Source: Synechococcus sp. M44_DOE_062 (GTDB taxonomy: Bacteria; Cyanobacteriota; Cyanobacteriia; Thermostichales; Thermostichaceae). Taken from it: a DNA stretch of 64,000 bases. Shown here piece after piece: positions 5,860 through 56,917 of the stretch. Both the position numbers and the translations under genes were made by a program. Each line of letters starts with the position of its first letter. Position 1 is the first letter of the stretch. The notes beneath the pieces are model-generated. The model searched no databases and was not told the origin of the DNA. It saw only the letters and a list, made by a program, of their open reading frames with translations. Location of the stretch: the NCBI GenBank assembly GCA_015295985.1, contig DVDX01000060.1:1-64000 (forward strand), read 5' to 3'.

Positions 5860-6996
5860 CTAGGGGGTCAGAGAACCTTCCAGGCAGCGCAGCACTTCGG
5901 TCACATTCTCACGGCTGCCAATGATGAGGGGCACCCGTTGGTGGAGGGATTGGGGAACAATATCCAGGATGGCCTCGGTGCCGGTGGTGGCTGCCCCACC
6001 CGCCTGCTCGGCCAGAAAAGCCAGGGGATTGGCCTCGTACATTAGGCGCAGCTTGCCTTCCGGTTTTTTCTGGGTGCCGGGATAGAGGTAAACTCCCCCC
6101 TGCAGCAGAATGCGGTGAAAATCTGCCACCAAAGCGCCGCTGTAGCGGGAGATGTAGCCATCGCGGCGGTGAACATAGCGAACGAAGTTTTGGATCCCTT
6201 CGCTCCAGTGGCAGAAATAGCCCTCGTTGAGGCTGTAGACGGAGCCGCGTTCAGGAATGCGGATGTCGCTGCGGGAGAGGATAAATTCCCCCAAGCTGGG
6301 ATCCAACGTGAAACCGTGTACCCCCTTGCCGACGGAATAGACCAGTTGGGTGCTGGGGCCGTAGAGAATATACCCTGCAGCCAGTTGGCGACGGCCCGGT
6401 TGCAGCAGGTCTTGGTTGTCCGCTTCCGGGCGATCCTCAAGAGGGTGAAGGACGGAGAAGATAGAGCCGACGCTGAGGTTGGCGTCAATGTTGGAGGATC
6501 CATCCAGGGGATCGATCATCAGGGCCAAGCGGCTGAGGGAGCAGTTTTCCGGCAGGCGAGCCGGGGTTTTCATCTCCTCCGAGACCAGCCGACACACCAG
6601 GCCCGTTTGCTCCAAGGCGCGAATGAAGGCCCGGTTGGCATAGTCGTCCATCTGTTGCTGTTCTTCCCCTTGGACATTGACGCTGCCGGTAACCCCCAGC
6701 GCCCCTTCGATCAGTCCTGCCTGACTCAGCCGCCGGGCAATCATCTTGCCGGCCAGGGCAATGCGGTTCATCAGGGCGCTGAAGTCTTGGGCTTCTGCCG
6801 TAAAGCTGCCAAACTGCTGCAAAACATGACGGGAGAGGGTGAGCACGTCCCGCGACATCTCCTGTGAGGACTCTGTCCCGCCAACGCGGTCGGCGCTGCT
6901 GGACACTACCGGCGGGGAGGGAGGAGAGCTGAGAACCATACGAGGCTTCGCCAACACGAAAGAAAAACACCCATACAGGGGATCCCCGACCCCCAC
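5860..6996 (-). CDS. fbp: fructose-1,6-bisphosphatase class I
   Basis: ORF with [23 protein letters not shown] and [18 protein letters not shown]-terminal start uncertain (hairpin repeat in 5' region). Confidence 0.93.
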
Positions 6997-10562: not shown

Positions 10563-10602
10563 CTATAGTCATTTTAATTTAAACTAGGGCATTGCCCCTA
10601 CA
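10563..10602 (+). repeat. solo left end of the MITE-like element, directly upstream of copy 1
   Basis: ctatagtcattttaatttaaactagggcattgcccctaca parallels ctatggtcatttcgattcaaactagaacactgcgcccata. Confidence 0.65.
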
Positions 10603-10603
10603 C

Positions 10604-10769
10604 CTATGGTCATTTCGATTCAAACTAGAACACTGCGCCCATATCTAAAGCATTGAACGCATGGGGTCAAAAGGATTTTCAAGGACTCTGTCCCGCTAGC
10701 GCGGTCGCGTCAGCGTTGCGTAGCAACACAGTAGTTCAGGTGTCTCACCCCAACCTGAAATGACCATAG
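10604..10769 (+). mobile_element. MITE-like element, copy 1, with 47-bp hairpin repeat inserted at about 10685-10731
   Basis: Begins ctatggtcatttc and ends gaaatgaccatag: perfect 13-bp terminal inverted repeats. Confidence 0.75.
10685..10731 (+). repeat. hairpin repeat inserted inside MITE-like copy 1
   Basis: actctgtcccgctagcgcggtcgcgtcagcgttgcgtagcaacacag; absent from copy 2. Confidence 0.7.
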
Positions 10770-43263: not shown

Positions 43264-43677
43264 ATGGTTTCGCCTTGGATCGTCATCGGATTACTCCTCA
43301 TTTTTGCCGAATTGTTTTTGCCAGAATTGGTTGCCGGCTCGGTGGGGCTGGCGGCCCTCTTGGCAGGGCTTTTGGCCTATTTGGGTTTGCCAATCTGGGT
43401 GCAATTTGTCGCCTGGATTGGAGGGTCGGTGGTGTTGATTATCCTCAGCCGCCGTCTGGTGCCCCATGGGTCGGTTCAGATAGAGGAATCTCGCGAGGCG
43501 CGGGCAATCACCGCCATTCCGCCGGGCGAACGGGGGCGGGTTTCTTATCTGGGTTCCACCTGGAACGCCAAGTGCAGCATCCCCAACCTAGAAATCCAAG
43601 CTGGGCAGGAGCTCTATGTGGTGGAGCGGCAGGGAAATACCCTCATCGTCATGCCGGCCAAGATGCTCAAGTCCTGA
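43264..43677 (+). CDS. NfeD-family membrane protein
   Basis: WIVIGLLLIFAELFLPELVAGSVGLAALLAGLLAYLGLPIW... then OB-fold AKCSIPNLEIQAGQELYVVERQGNTLIV. Confidence 0.82.
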   Translation: MVSPWIVIGLLLIFAELFLPELVAGSVGLAALLAGLLAYLGLPIWVQFVAWIGGSVVLIILSRRLVPHGSVQIEESREARAITAIPPGERGRVSYLGSTWNAKCSIPNLEIQAGQELYVVERQGNTLIVMPAKMLKS

Positions 43678-43776: not shown

Positions 43777-43850
43777 CGGGATGTAGCGCAGCTTGGTAGC
43801 GCATCTGCTTTGGGAGCAGAGGGCCGCAGGTTCAAATCCTGTCATCCCGA
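43777..43850 (+). tRNA. tRNA-Pro (TGG)
   Basis: 74-nt cloverleaf: cgggatg acceptor, tagcgcagcttggtagcgca D arm, ctgctttgggagcag anticodon arm, gcaggttcaaatcctg T arm, catcccga. Confidence 0.93.
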
Positions 43851-49560: not shown

Positions 49561-50343
49561 ATGGCTAACTACCCGATGCGAGGCCGTTCTTCTCCTGTTT
49601 CCGGCAGTTTTCCCCTGGGCACCTTGGTGGTGATGAGTGTCTCGGTTGGGGCTCTGGCCGCCTTGGGTTGGCAGTTGTGGCAGCTTGTTGCCCCGATGTT
49701 GGCTCCCCCTGCCCCGCCTCAATTTCCGCAGGCCGTGCGCTTGGATCCCTTGCCCAGCCCGGCAACTTTTCCCTCTCCCTTGCCTGGCCCTGCTGCAGGC
49801 ACTGTTGACCCTGAGGGGTTTCCCCCCGGCAGCCGCGGGCGGGTGATCGAGCCGATTGGCCTGGCAATCCGCAGCCAACCTTCCGCCGATGGAGCCTACC
49901 AAGGGGGAATTGTGGTGGGGGAAGTGGTGACGGTGTTGGAGTACAGCGCCGATGGTCGTTGGCAACGGGTGCGGCGGGAGTTGAACGGACAAGAGGGCTG
50001 GGTGCGTGCCGGCAATTTGGGCCCTGTAGACGGTGCTTCGGCCTCAACTGCTTCCAATCCCACTCGTGAATCTGCTCCTTCGCCAACTCAGTCCCCCGTC
50101 GCGTCAGCGTTGCAGAGCAATGTAACGACAGTGGTCTCTCCAGGTGAGCGGGGACGGGTGATCGAGCCCATCGGCCTGGCGCTGCGGGCCACTCCAGAGC
50201 GGGAGGGAACCTACATTGGCGGTGTGCCCATGAACGAGGTGGTGACGGTGCTGGGCCTCAGCGAGGATGGCCGCTGGCAGCGCATCCGCCGTCAGAATGG
50301 ACAGGAAGGTTGGGTACGGGCGGGGAATTTGGCGCAGGAGTAG
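49561..50343 (+). CDS. membrane-anchored protein with two SH3b domains
   Basis: Two similar units GRVIEPIGLAIRSQPSADGAYQGG..GRWQRVRRELNGQEGWVRAGNL and GRVIEPIGLALRATPEREGTYIGG..GRWQRIRRQNGQEGWVRAGNL. Confidence 0.82.
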   Translation: MANYPMRGRSSPVSGSFPLGTLVVMSVSVGALAALGWQLWQLVAPMLAPPAPPQFPQAVRLDPLPSPATFPSPLPGPAAGTVDPEGFPPGSRGRVIEPIGLAIRSQPSADGAYQGGIVVGEVVTVLEYSADGRWQRVRRELNGQEGWVRAGNLGPVDGASASTASNPTRESAPSPTQSPVASALQSNVTTVVSPGERGRVIEPIGLALRATPEREGTYIGGVPMNEVVTVLGLSEDGRWQRIRRQNGQEGWVRAGNLAQE

Positions 50344-50437: not shown

Positions 50438-50462
50438 GTTGCGTCAGCGTTGCGGAGCAATG
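50438..50462 (+). repeat. hairpin repeat gcgtcagcgTTGCggaGCAAtg
   Basis: ggttgcgtcagcgttgcggagcaatg; hairpin TTGC-GGA-GCAA. Confidence 0.8.
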
Positions 50463-51001: not shown

Positions 51002-51703
51002 ATGCACATCAGCGATGGCATTTTGCCGGCACCGCTTTGGCTGGGGGGCTATGGCATCACCGCTCTCATCACCGGCTACAGCTTGCGGCTTCTCCGTCAC
51101 GTCGGCGTTACGGAGCAATGTCCTTGGTGGGAAAGGGATCCCCGCTATATTGCTACGCAACGCTGTCGCGACCAGTTGCCCAAGGCGGCTTTGCTCACGG
51201 CTGTCTTTTTTGTGGCCTCTTCCATTCATCTGCCCTTTCCCCCGGCCAGCCTGCATCTGGTGCTGAATGGGTTGATGGGCCTGATGTTGGGGGCTTTGGC
51301 CTATCCGGCCATTGTGGTGGGCTTGTTTTTTCAGGTGGTGGCCTTTGGCCATGGGGGCCTGACCACGTTGGGCATCAACGCCGCCATCATGGGGATCCCG
51401 GCGCTCTTGGCCGGTGGGATTTTTCGGGCGGGCCGTCGGGTGATGGGGGCCGGGGTGTCTGCTTTCTTGGCGGGAGCGGTGGGGGTGGGGCTGGCGGTGC
51501 TGTTGTTTTACGGGGTGGTTATGGCTGCTGTGGTTGACGCCGACAGCGGGGTTCTGTCCCCAGAAGCCGGTCGCCTCGCTTTGGGTAGCTTGGTGGTGGC
51601 CCATCTCCCCCTGATGGTGGTGGAGGGGTTGTTCGCCAGTTGGGTGGTGCTGTTTTTGCAGCGGGTACAACCGGCGCTGCTGGGCGACTATGGCAAAAGA
51701 TGA
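51002..51703 (+). CDS. cbiM: cobalt ECF transporter S component CbiM
   Basis: MHISDGILPAPLWLGGYGITALITGYSLRLL, KAALLTAVFFVASSIHLPFPPASLHLVLNGLMGLMLG. Confidence 0.88.
   Translation: MHISDGILPAPLWLGGYGITALITGYSLRLLRHVGVTEQCPWWERDPRYIATQRCRDQLPKAALLTAVFFVASSIHLPFPPASLHLVLNGLMGLMLGALAYPAIVVGLFFQVVAFGHGGLTTLGINAAIMGIPALLAGGIFRAGRRVMGAGVSAFLAGAVGVGLAVLLFYGVVMAAVVDADSGVLSPEAGRLALGSLVVAHLPLMVVEGLFASWVVLFLQRVQPALLGDYGKR
51097..51176. repeat. two opposed hairpin repeats inside cbiM
   Basis: cacgtcggcgttacggagcaatg (forward) and tattgctacgcaacgctgtcgcgacc (reverse), both in the cbiM reading frame. Confidence 0.8.
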
Positions 51704-52544
51704 AGCTGGCTCAGGGATCCCTTGCTGCCGGCGCGGTCATCAATCCCATCCTGACCTCCCCAAACCCCCTTCCTGGCTCCACCGGTGGCAACCTCTGCCT
51801 AAGGTGCTGGGTCTGATGGCCCTGATGGCGGCTTTCGCTTCGGTGAGGAGCCTGACCCTCTTGCCCCTCATCTGGGCGCTGGTGGCCGGACTGTGGAGCC
51901 TGTCGGGATTGCCTTGCAGCCTTATTGCTCCGCAACGCTGTCGCGACGGGCTGAAACGGCTGGCAGCCCCAGGGCTGTTGGTGGCAGGGCTGATGGGGAT
52001 CCTTCCCTTCTGGGCGGGGGAAACCCTCCTGTGGCGCTGGGGATCCCTGGCTTTGCGCTGGGAGGGGCTGGAGATGGCGCTCCGCATAGGGGGGAGGGGG
52101 CTGGCCCTGTTCGCTCTCACCATGCTACTGCTGGAGACCACCCCCATGTTGGAACTGTTGGCAGCTTTGCGGCAACTGGGGATCCCAGACCTGCTTTTGG
52201 AACTGGCCTGGCTCACCCAGCGCTATCTGCAAGAGATGGCTGCTCAGTGGGAGCAGATGCAACGAGCAGCCCGGTTGAGGGGTTGGCGACCGCGGGGATC
52301 CCTGTGGCGTCCTGGGCCGGCTCTAAGACAAGATCTGCCCTTTCTGGCCGCTTCGGTGGGCACCCTGTTGGTTCGCAGCTACGAGCGCTCGCAGAGGGTT
52401 TATCAGGCTTTGCGCCTGCGAGGCTATGGACGGGCACCTCTGTTTCCGACGGCGGCTAGCAGGGATCCCTACAGTTGGGCGGCTACTGCGTTGGCCGTGG
52501 CTACGGCTGTATTGCTCCGCAACGCTGATGCGGCCCTCAACTAG
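51690..52544 (+). CDS. cbiQ: cobalt ECF transporter T component CbiQ
   Basis: Multi-TM ORF with LAWLTQRYLQEMAAQWEQMQRAARLRGWRPR (coupling-helix-like) and SYERSQRVYQALRLRGYGR. Confidence 0.85.
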   Translation: MAKDEAGSGIPCCRRGHQSHPDLPKPPSWLHRWQPLPKVLGLMALMAAFASVRSLTLLPLIWALVAGLWSLSGLPCSLIAPQRCRDGLKRLAAPGLLVAGLMGILPFWAGETLLWRWGSLALRWEGLEMALRIGGRGLALFALTMLLLETTPMLELLAALRQLGIPDLLLELAWLTQRYLQEMAAQWEQMQRAARLRGWRPRGSLWRPGPALRQDLPFLAASVGTLLVRSYERSQRVYQALRLRGYGRAPLFPTAASRDPYSWAATALAVATAVLLRNADAALN

Positions 52545-54060: not shown

Positions 54061-54831
54061 ATGACTACCCTTCGCGGCAGTGGGACGGAGTCTTTGGATG
54101 AGCTAAAACAGGCGGCAGCCCGAGCCGCCGTTCAAAAGGTGCAGTCGGGGATGGTGGTGGGGCTGGGCACGGGATCCACAGCCGCCTTTGCTGTCAGCGC
54201 CCTAGCGGAGCGGATGCAAACCGAAGGTCTGCAGATTGTCGGTGTGCCTACCTCGGAGCGCACGGCTGAACAGGCCCGCTCCCTGGGGATCCCACTGGCT
54301 ACCCTGGAGGAGCAGCCCCGCCTGGATCTGGCCATCGATGGGGCCGACGAAATCGAAGTGGGATCCCTAAACCTGATCAAAGGGGCCGGAGGAGCTCTGT
54401 TGCGGGAAAAATTGGTGGAGGCCAGCGCCGCCGAGCTGATCATCGTTGCCGATGCCTCTAAAAAAGTTGCGCAGTTGGGCACCCGCTTTCCCGTGCCTGT
54501 GGAAGTGGTGCGGTTTGGCTGGAAAACCACCTTGGCCCGGGTGGAGGCCATTGGCTGTGCAGCCACGCTGCGGTTGAATGCCCAAGGGGATCCCTACCTG
54601 ACGGATGAGCAGCACTACATCCTCGATTGCCAATTCGGCCCTATGGCGGATCCCGCTAAGATTGCCGATCAACTAAAAGGGACGGTGGGGGTTGTGGAAC
54701 ATGGCCTGTTCATCGGTATGGCCAAAGAGGCAATCATCGCGCTCCCGTCGCGACAGCGGGACGGAGTCCTTACTAGGATCGAAACGCTGCAACCAGGCTG
54801 TGAGGAGAGAGGAGTGAGGAGAGAGAAGTGA
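54061..54831 (+). CDS. rpiA: ribose-5-phosphate isomerase A
   Basis: VGLGTGSTAAFAVSALAERM, LDLAIDGADEIEVGSLNLIKGAGGALLREKLVE. C-terminus runs through a hairpin repeat and a purine tract. Confidence 0.93.
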   Translation: MTTLRGSGTESLDELKQAAARAAVQKVQSGMVVGLGTGSTAAFAVSALAERMQTEGLQIVGVPTSERTAEQARSLGIPLATLEEQPRLDLAIDGADEIEVGSLNLIKGAGGALLREKLVEASAAELIIVADASKKVAQLGTRFPVPVEVVRFGWKTTLARVEAIGCAATLRLNAQGDPYLTDEQHYILDCQFGPMADPAKIADQLKGTVGVVEHGLFIGMAKEAIIALPSRQRDGVLTRIETLQPGCEERGVRREK

Positions 54832-54932: not shown

Positions 54933-56318
54933 ATGCTGACCCTACAAACTGTGGCCGACCTGCTGCAAACTCCCCTGCAGGGGGATCCCCATTTGCTGCG
55001 GTTTCCCATTCGGGCCATTTGCACCGACAGCCGCCAATTGCAGCCAGGCTCGGTCTTCGTGGCGCTGCGGGGGGAACGGTTTGATGGACATGACTTCATT
55101 CCGCAAGCCTTGGCCAGAGGGGCTGTTGCCGTCATCAGCCAGCGTCCGGTGGCCGGGCCCCATTTTCAAGTCTCAGATACCTTAGCTGCCTACCAGCGCA
55201 TTGCCAGAGGCTGGCGGGAGCAGTTTTCCCCCCCTGTAGTGGCCATCACGGGCTCAGCAGGCAAAACCACCACCAAAGAAATGCTGGCGGCTGCCCTGTC
55301 CCGCTACGGCACAGTTCTCAAAACAGAAGCCAACCACAACAACGACATCGGGGTTGCTCAAACACTGCTCCAGATGCAACCGGAGCATCAGTTTGTGGTT
55401 CTGGAAATGGCCATGCGCGGCCCTGGAGAAATTCGCCGACTGGCTCAGATGGCTCAACCCACCCACGCCTTGATCACCCATATCGGTACCGCCCACATTG
55501 GCAGACTGGGATCCCGTGCGGCCATTGCCGCCGCCAAGTGCGAGCTGCTGCAAGAGCTAGGACAAGGGGTGGCTCTGCTCAATGGAGAAGATCCCTTGCT
55601 GTTGTCCACCGCCGCCAGCCTGTGGTCGGGACAAACCCTCACCTATCGCGTTAGCGGGACGGAGTCCCATGGCCTGGAAAGTGCTCCGCACCGCTACCGC
55701 GATCGGGGGAACTTACGAGGAGAATGGGATCCCCAAGCCCAAACGGTAACCGTGGAGGGCCTAACGCTACCTGTGCCTCTGCCTGGAAGGCATCATGCCC
55801 TCAACTGGATGGGGGTGCTGGCTGCTTTGCGCAGCTTGGGGCTGGATTGGGAGCGGCTCCGAGAACCCATCGCCTTGCCCACCCATCTGGAGGGGCGCAA
55901 CCGCCATCTCAAACTGGCGGGAGATGTGGAAATCTGGGATGAAACCTACAATGCCTCGCCGGAAGCGATGATTGCAGCTCTGCACCTGTTGGCTCAAACT
56001 CCGGGGAAACGGCGCTGGGCCATTCTCGGCCCGATGCGGGAATTGGGAGAGCATGCACCTCAACTCTATGCGGAGGTGGGTCGGGCGGCTGCCCCTTTGG
56101 GGCTGGATCGGGTCTTGCTCTTGGATCCGGAAGGGGAGATGCAACCGCTGCTCGACCAAAAACCGGCAGCCCAGGCAGAACGCTGCGAGGATGTATCGGA
56201 ACTGCTGGAAGTCTTGCTGCATCAGGTACAAGCCGGGGATCGGCTGCTGTTCAAAGCAGCACGGGCTGTCGAGCTGGAGCGGGTGCTGCGCCGCTTTTTG
56301 CAGGAGTGGCAGGCATAG
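54933..56318 (+). CDS. murF: UDP-N-acetylmuramoyl-tripeptide--D-alanyl-D-alanine ligase
   Basis: ITGSAGKTTTKEMLAAALS, TEANHNNDIGVAQTLLQ, DETYNASPEAMIAALHLLA. Confidence 0.94.
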   Translation: MLTLQTVADLLQTPLQGDPHLLRFPIRAICTDSRQLQPGSVFVALRGERFDGHDFIPQALARGAVAVISQRPVAGPHFQVSDTLAAYQRIARGWREQFSPPVVAITGSAGKTTTKEMLAAALSRYGTVLKTEANHNNDIGVAQTLLQMQPEHQFVVLEMAMRGPGEIRRLAQMAQPTHALITHIGTAHIGRLGSRAAIAAAKCELLQELGQGVALLNGEDPLLLSTAASLWSGQTLTYRVSGTESHGLESAPHRYRDRGNLRGEWDPQAQTVTVEGLTLPVPLPGRHHALNWMGVLAALRSLGLDWERLREPIALPTHLEGRNRHLKLAGDVEIWDETYNASPEAMIAALHLLAQTPGKRRWAILGPMRELGEHAPQLYAEVGRAAAPLGLDRVLLLDPEGEMQPLLDQKPAAQAERCEDVSELLEVLLHQVQAGDRLLFKAARAVELERVLRRFLQEWQA

Positions 56319-56449
56319 GCTAAACTGAGGGATGTATCGATGGAAAGCCTGCGTCCCTCGGTTGAGAGGAGATCGATCCAAGCCGGTCGCCCCAGCGGGA
56401 CGGAGCCCTAGTTCATTCCTCGTCGATAGTTGCCCTTTTTGCGTACGGC

Positions 56450-56798: not shown

Positions 56799-56917
56799 AT
56801 ACAGTCGTTTCAGGTTAGAGTGAGACGCCTGAGCTACCAAGAAAAGTCTTCCGGCCCCGCGCATTCAACGCTTCAGGTGTGGGTGCAGTGTCTTAGTTTG
56901 AATCAGAATGACTATAG
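56799..56917 (-). mobile_element. 119-bp MITE-like element, copy 2
   Basis: Reverse complement aligns along its length with 10604-10769 once 10685-10731 is removed (166-47=119); ends resemble CTATGGTCATTTC...GAAATGACCATAG. Confidence 0.7.

Follow-up and report, generated by a model that had tools for sequence, protein, structure and literature searches.

A probable nested composite in Synechococcus sp. M44_DOE_062: 24-nt SDR-type units within an IS630/Tc1-mariner-type MITE

In the stretch of 64,000 nt analysed here from Synechococcus sp. M44_DOE_062 (GCA_015295985.1, contig DVDX01000060.1, positions 1 to 64,000; hereafter the window), the feature at 10604-10769 is most likely a nested composite, in which a MITE of the IS630/Tc1-mariner type carries two 24-nt SDR units placed head to head. 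The outer element is a non-autonomous, old IS630-type MITE, of an ordinary kind. Nested in it are units of SDR type, whose host lineage lacks HIP1; their target is looser, their copy number high, and insertion in frame is frequent. The source genome (G000; 2.93 Mb in 90 contigs) was compared mainly with G004, a congeneric complete genome with 93% identity over the window, with G001, also from the genus, and with G005, from a sister species. The parts of the composite and a second copy of the MITE are the following:

10604-10769, plus strand: MITE copy with perfect 13-bp terminal inverted repeats (from the repeats, the BLASTN family and the reading of 65 copies).
10564-10768, plus strand: whole inserted element including the TA target duplication (from the orthologous empty site in G004).
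10563-10603, plus strand: extra truncated MITE left end, in tandem, which stops at a family-internal TA (CACC-TA) (41-bp direct repeat, 73% identity).
10682-10705, minus strand: unit a, a 24-nt double-hairpin SDR unit whose minus-strand sequence is ACCGCGCTAGCGGGACAGAGTCCT (compared with empty MITEs, a precise insertion of 24 bp at TTTTC^TCAGTAGC).
10704-10727, plus strand: unit b, a 24-nt double hairpin, GTCGCGTCAGCGTTGCGTAGCAAC (L007 of G000 with b, compared with L146 of G004 and L049 of G001 without it).
56800-56916, minus strand: second MITE copy, 117 bp, without an SDR unit (common to G004, empty in G001).

The original prediction, made from the window alone, described a MITE-like element with exact 13-bp inverted ends and without a transposase ORF, and all of this holds. 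The repeats are found at 10604-10616 and 10757-10769. As a stand-alone proof they were rejected, since about 0.26 perfect 13-bp inverted pairs with arms at most 200 bp apart are expected by chance in 64 kb. The decisive evidence is the copy number of the MITE and not the TIR alone: 62 BLASTN matches to the element were found in the source genome, with E values outside the window as low as 1e-45, and reading in three genomes of the genus gave 65 distinct copies with both ends. The consensus has about 117 bp and runs from TATGGTCATTTCGATTCAAACTAG at the left end to CACCCTAACCTGAAACGACCATA at the right end, while the length of the copies, which number dozens, ranges from 105 to 288 bp. None of the family carries a transposase gene. 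The second locus, predicted at 56799-56917 on the reverse strand, is a real copy without the insert, shorter by the 47 bp that had been claimed, and only its borders had to be corrected to 56800-56916. This copy is flanked by TA and its orthologous site in G001 is empty.

The borders of the first locus needed more revision. A MITE copy does lie at 10604-10769, but a 41-bp second left end (10563-10603) precedes it in tandem, and the inserted element is therefore 10566-10766, between the TA at 10564-10565 and the TA at 10767-10768. A right-hand part matching this extra left end was not found downstream. The simplest reading is a MITE inserted into a MITE, with the remainder then deleted. The insert, in turn, had been placed at 10685-10731; compared with the empty consensus TTTTC^TCAGTAGC it occupies 10681-10728, as 48 bp in place of one T, and the length difference of 47 bp between both loci stands.

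At the orthologous site of G004 the element is absent (GATC-TG-GATTCGG, against GATC-TA[element]TA-GATTGTA in G000). Comparison of this empty site with the TA-flanked element in G000 indicates that the target is TA and that it is duplicated, which supplies the target-site duplication that the prediction had left to be looked for in the flanks. Within the 65 copies, TA is present at the start in 51 and at the end in 43. Outside the TA, the MITE ends agree at 20/28 and 19/28 positions with those of an IS630-family IS of about 940 bp in G005 (PF13358; L073 and L081), an agreement reached by 0 of 200,000 shuffles. The IS630 copies of G001 were rejected as parents, their ends agreeing at 9-12/28 positions only. 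No match to an IS630 transposase (PF13358) was found in G000, a draft assembly in which a collapsed repeat is possible; the autonomous IS anticipated by the prediction has been found, as an IS630 with matching ends, in the sister species and not in the source genome. An autonomous partner in the same genome is not essential, and MITEs can outlive their parent IS. We suggest that an IS630-family transposase, acting in trans, would have inserted the MITE at TA. Because the copies are just about 75-85% alike, the family is probably inactive at present, and some 110 MITE sites at about 80% identity hold too little to resolve a formal tree. The TA duplication, the IS630-like ends, the lack of an ORF, the many copies and the intergenic location are shared with other IS630/Tc1-mariner-derived MITEs, such as Nezha and the ISSoc2-derived MITEs of thermophilic Synechococcus (Nelson et al. 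2012, in a citing passage of PMC10969869). Unlike in those, no autonomous IS630 was found in G000, the copies are old, and the likeness to the IS630 of G005 is a comparison of ends only.

The 47 bp had been taken for one hairpin unit, a reading that we reject: compared with MITEs in the 24-bp state, the insert resolves into two nested double-hairpin units, as 24 + 23 bp. Unit b stands head to head with unit a, at the GCG^AT(C) end of the latter, with 1 nt lost. At two internal sites the MITE copies show distinct alternative states. Site B (TTTTC^TCAGTAGC) can lack an insert, contain unit a (24 bp, AAGGACTCCGTCCCGCTGGCGCGA) or contain 47 bp, consisting of unit a plus unit b (GTCGCGNCAGCGTTGCGTAGCAAC) at the GCG^ATC-like end of a. 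The 24-bp state of this site is present in G000, G004 and G001, the 47-bp state in G000 alone. Site A (GTTG^AATGCA) is empty or contains 24 bp (GTCGCGTCAGCGTTGCGGAGCAAT). Repeats of 8 nt (TCGCGTCN) often lie next to unit b at this site, and a third 24-nt unit, unit c (TTCCCGTCAGGGTGCCGTAGGCAT), is often found there nested inside unit b.

The two loci of the window had been regarded as an occupied/empty pair that directly supports the mobility of the hairpin. The hairpin is indeed separately mobile, but the two loci are paralogous and the difference between them alone proves little. Mobility is shown by the orthologous occupied/empty sites of G000 and G004 together with copies within one genome that differ by exactly 24 nt. 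Ten MITE pairs with flanks matching on both sides were used as the orthologous comparison set. Among them, L007 (G000) has 47 bp at the site where L146 (G004) and L049 (G001) have 24 bp, and the same difference separates L005 from L152. In three further pairs of orthologous MITEs the difference concerns site A, or both sites together: L093 (a+b+c) from L127 (none), L022 (none) from L138 (b), and L120 (none) from L135 (b). Since the orthologous states differ, units have been gained or lost within MITEs that were already fixed. It could be argued that a single 47-bp insertion hit a master MITE and that all carriers descend from that copy, in which case the nested pair would be uninformative on hairpin mobility. 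Every carrier has the insert at one site with the shared 1-nt loss, and a subfamily inheriting the insert would give the same picture. We find this history improbable given the five orthologous differences above and the movement of units outside MITEs as well. On the other hand, the identical 1-nt loss in all 47-bp copies suggests that unit b spread partly by gene conversion or MITE copying instead of repeated insertion.

Outside the MITEs, the alignment of the window with syntenic G004 gave a peak of indel sizes at exactly 24 bp, with 11 events, compared with 0 of 22 or 23 bp and 2 of 25 bp. Most of these 11 indels (at least 7) are double-hairpin units. The following units and unit-like sequences of the window were listed, the first six from base-level alignments:

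50438-50461, plus strand: 24-nt unit, absent from the orthologous G004 site.
51924-51947, minus strand: 24-nt unit within cbiQ, in frame as 8 codons, missing in G004.
54748-54771, plus strand: 24-nt unit close to the 3' end of rpiA, in frame, missing in G004.
55645-55668, plus strand: first murF unit, 24 nt, in frame, missing in G004.
55680-55703, minus strand: second murF unit, in frame, stem GTGC/GCAC, opposite orientation, absent from G004.
56387-56410, plus strand: 24-nt unit downstream of murF, absent from G004.
51149-51172, minus strand: 24-nt unit in the cbiM ORF, with a matching unit in the syntenic G004 stretch.
6867-6890: unit-like sequence in the class 1 fructose-bisphosphatase ORF.
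54071-54094: unit-like sequence in the rpiA 5' region.
50098-50121: unit-like sequence in the ORF of an SH3-domain protein.

Some of the last four are possibly older and in common with G004. The insertions at 50438, 51924, 54748, 55645, 55680 and 56387 are clean, and the murF sites are empty in G001 too. As 24 bp correspond to eight codons, the reading frame is kept by units inside ORFs, and the G004 orthologs of RpiA, MurF and CbiQ are found without the 8-residue inserts. Over 845 kb, an empty counterpart was found for 23 of the 69 strict members; in 19 of these the difference is exactly 24 bp, and the flanks are 93-100% identical in several of the 19 pairs, with 98-100% in some. In G004, copies of a 282-bp repeat differ by nothing but a 24-nt unit. 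The units insert as exactly 24 bp, without target duplication and in either orientation, and they are found between genes, within MITEs and other repeats, within one another and, in frame, within genes. In the 69-member list, which was chosen for pairing, the left flank is mostly CTG, CCG or GCG and the right flank mostly A, preferences that indicate a target of approximately (C)YG^A. Two further observations come from G004: the 282-bp repeat is non-coding (G004:C1:106653, 123774 and 146825) and possibly a second MITE family, and at window position 43674, about 100 bp upstream of a tRNA gene (43777-43850), G004 has 1.3 kb of extra DNA.

The 24-bp differences might instead be precise deletions, or replication slippage, of an old and once ubiquitous hairpin. 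Hairpins are prone to deletion, and two genomes cannot polarise the direction at every site. We judge such an origin very improbable, however, since empty MITE copies are the commonest class, G001 has the smaller state at the L007 locus as well as the empty murF sites, and nothing requires deletions to be precisely 24 bp long at sites that are unrelated and lack flanking repeats. An ancestral insert that was deleted from the second copy of the window, an outcome that the prediction had named as its own refutation, does not hold for unit b, which is absent from the orthologous MITE in both G004 and G001; for unit a, MITEs that lack it form the commonest class.

The unit has the form NT-CGC-GNNA-GCG-NNNN-GKA-N'N'N'N'-T, with two adjacent mini-hairpins and no coding capacity. 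Searching for its constant part (CGCGNNAGCG-N4-GKA-N4), with pairing not required, we obtained 66 matches in 845 kb, and the second stem was fully paired in 53 of them, with at least 9 stem sequences (GGAC, TTGC, GTGC, GGCC, GCGC and AGCC among them); spacing-shifted controls gave 0-2 matches and 0 paired. In unit c the first stem is changed to CCC/GGG. When all 3-4-3/4-3-4 double hairpins were scanned, 228 were found against about 150 at most neighbouring offsets, with 249 at offset -3; this general excess is modest because most such matches are chance, and the signal lies in the CGC/GNNA family. Single-unit folding z-scores are also modest (-1.5 to -2.3), and no Rfam family was matched by a search with the unit.

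The 14-mer of unit a is present in 165 copies in G000, 192 in G004 and 45 in G001, with 0 for the reversed control. A covariance model built from 46 units matched 46 of 146 cyanobacterial genomes; counts in the genus, saturated at the 54 candidates scored per genome, are higher than those in families f18, f24, f26 and others. Among 85,462 prokaryote species, with records of this genus left out, the exact unit-a pattern was found in cyanobacteria only (Geitlerinema sp. BBD 1991-9, Baaleninema simplex PCC 7105, a Gloeomargaritales strain, a Thermosynechococcus MAG and an uncultured cyanobacterium), and none was found in viral contigs. In Geitlerinema sp. BBD 1991-9, a distant cyanobacterium, unit a occupies a constant place in many copies of a longer repeat, ctaaggggaggtgccg[unit]taggcggaggggtcat (L230, L231, L233-L236, L238-L241, L243, L246 and L247). 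Units of three other genomes, G143, G123 and G108 (L250, L252 and L259), lie in a cyanobacterial repeat, GTAGGTTGGGTTG^..GGAACGAAACCCAACA, and tandem arrays of unit a, of period 24, as well as dense clusters of units were seen in G004 (G004:C1:2594309-2594418 and 320272-325298).

The motif GGGATCCC occurs 100 times in the window, where 2.8 are expected, and HIP1 (GCGATCGC) 0 times. The presence of GGGATCCC in place of HIP1 marks the thermophilic Synechococcus JA-3-3Ab/JA-2-3B group (PMC4390886). The host presumably belongs to this group. In f24 and f26, some units are exactly in HIP1, as GCG[unit]ATCGC (L251, L258 and L269), like SDR5, whose insertion site is given in a passage of PMC4390886 as within HIP1, between the third and fourth nucleotide (GCG^ATCGC). 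SDR4, SDR5 and SDR6 of Nostoc and relatives (Elhai et al. 2008) are cited in PMC4390886 and PMC3116915, and as far as the citing passages describe them, our units share their size class of 21-27 nt, the two-stem structure with compensatory changes, the lack of target duplication, and the nesting, which occurs in one another as well as in minitransposons and short tandem repeats. Nesting is seen here at the two MITE sites, in unit c within unit b and in the 8-nt TCGCGTCN repeats beside unit b. The likeness to those SDRs is one of description, and unlike them our units number in the hundreds, many in frame within housekeeping genes. Since the target in the genus is (C)YG^A, looser than that of SDR5, and the window of this GGGATCCC-bearing host lacks HIP1, the units are filed as SDR-type and not as SDR5.

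Regarding the form in which they move, the loops are informative. The first loop is GNNA in 60 of 73 units, and in 55 of these 60 its third base is a pyrimidine, so these are not the GNRA loops of RNA. The two loops of the unit match C(GNNA)G and C(GKA)G, motifs known for their exceptional stability in single-stranded DNA. In DNA folding the two-hairpin structure is dominant on both strands, and unit b reaches a fold frequency of 0.74 as DNA compared with 0.20, not dominant, as RNA. The loop pattern favours a DNA over an RNA intermediate. An RNA intermediate, with retroposition or reverse-splicing-like insertion, has been proposed for cyanobacterial SDRs, and Elhai and colleagues are said to have favoured it in 2008. 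Paired changes that conserve the structure and the frequent location within transcribed genes would suit such a route, but the loops (GNYA instead of GNRA), the weaker RNA fold of unit b and the occurrence of both unit orientations in genes make it doubtful here.

Our own proposal, tentative and to be taken as possible rather than probable, is that the 24-nt unit moves as a folded DNA single strand, selected for the extra-stable C(GNNA)G and C(GKA)G loops, and that its 24-bp length permits frameshift-free entry to housekeeping genes, the genome being continually seeded with 8-residue inserts. What moves would be a segment of single-stranded DNA, folded by means of its two loops, and its placement at the target might be due to a single-strand enzyme, encoded by the host or by an IS, or to a replication-linked reaction.

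It could also be that a single-strand transposase of the cell, of the IS200/IS605 type (HUH/Y1), uses the units as minimal substrates. Elements of the IS200/IS605 family have hairpin recognition, make no target duplication and insert at a short fixed left target, which is comparable to (C)YG^, and Y1 transposase genes are present in 6/6 genomes of the genus. We nevertheless consider this unlikely. The number of Y1_Tnp matches, counted without splitting RAYT from IS200/IS605, does not track the units (2 matches and 192 unit-a 14-mers in G004, 19 and 45 in G001), and the unit hairpins come to 1-2 nt of the ends, a shorter distance than at the known ends of IS200/IS605 elements. With REPINs and RAYT (PMC3116915) our units have in common the short hairpins without coding capacity and a possible Y1-type helper enzyme; a REPIN, however, consists of two inverted REPs and is mostly extragenic, whereas here the unit is a single 24-nt double hairpin, and no dedicated RAYT was singled out among the unsplit Y1_Tnp matches. 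Rickettsia palindromic elements resemble our units as in-frame repeats in unrelated protein genes, but have about 150 bp instead of 24 bp (PMC10969869).

Mobile double-hairpin elements of mitochondrial DNA consist of two adjacent small hairpins and occur in genes and spacers. Our units resemble them in the paired small hairpins, the mobility and the presence in both genes and spacers, a likeness by description between different genomes, as these elements are mentioned in a passage of PMC2670323.

SDRs are claimed to be among the smallest mobile DNAs, and their mode of movement has been a question since 2008. The genus provides units in the hundreds, sister strains with full sequences, exact 24-bp occupied/empty pairs and repeat copies that are otherwise identical, and because of these the direction, rate, target and strand of the insertions are measurable. 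A DNA rather than an RNA intermediate, as favoured by the loops, is a testable change to the mechanism proposed for SDRs. The in-frame 8-residue inserts in RpiA, MurF and CbiQ are a source of protein variation.
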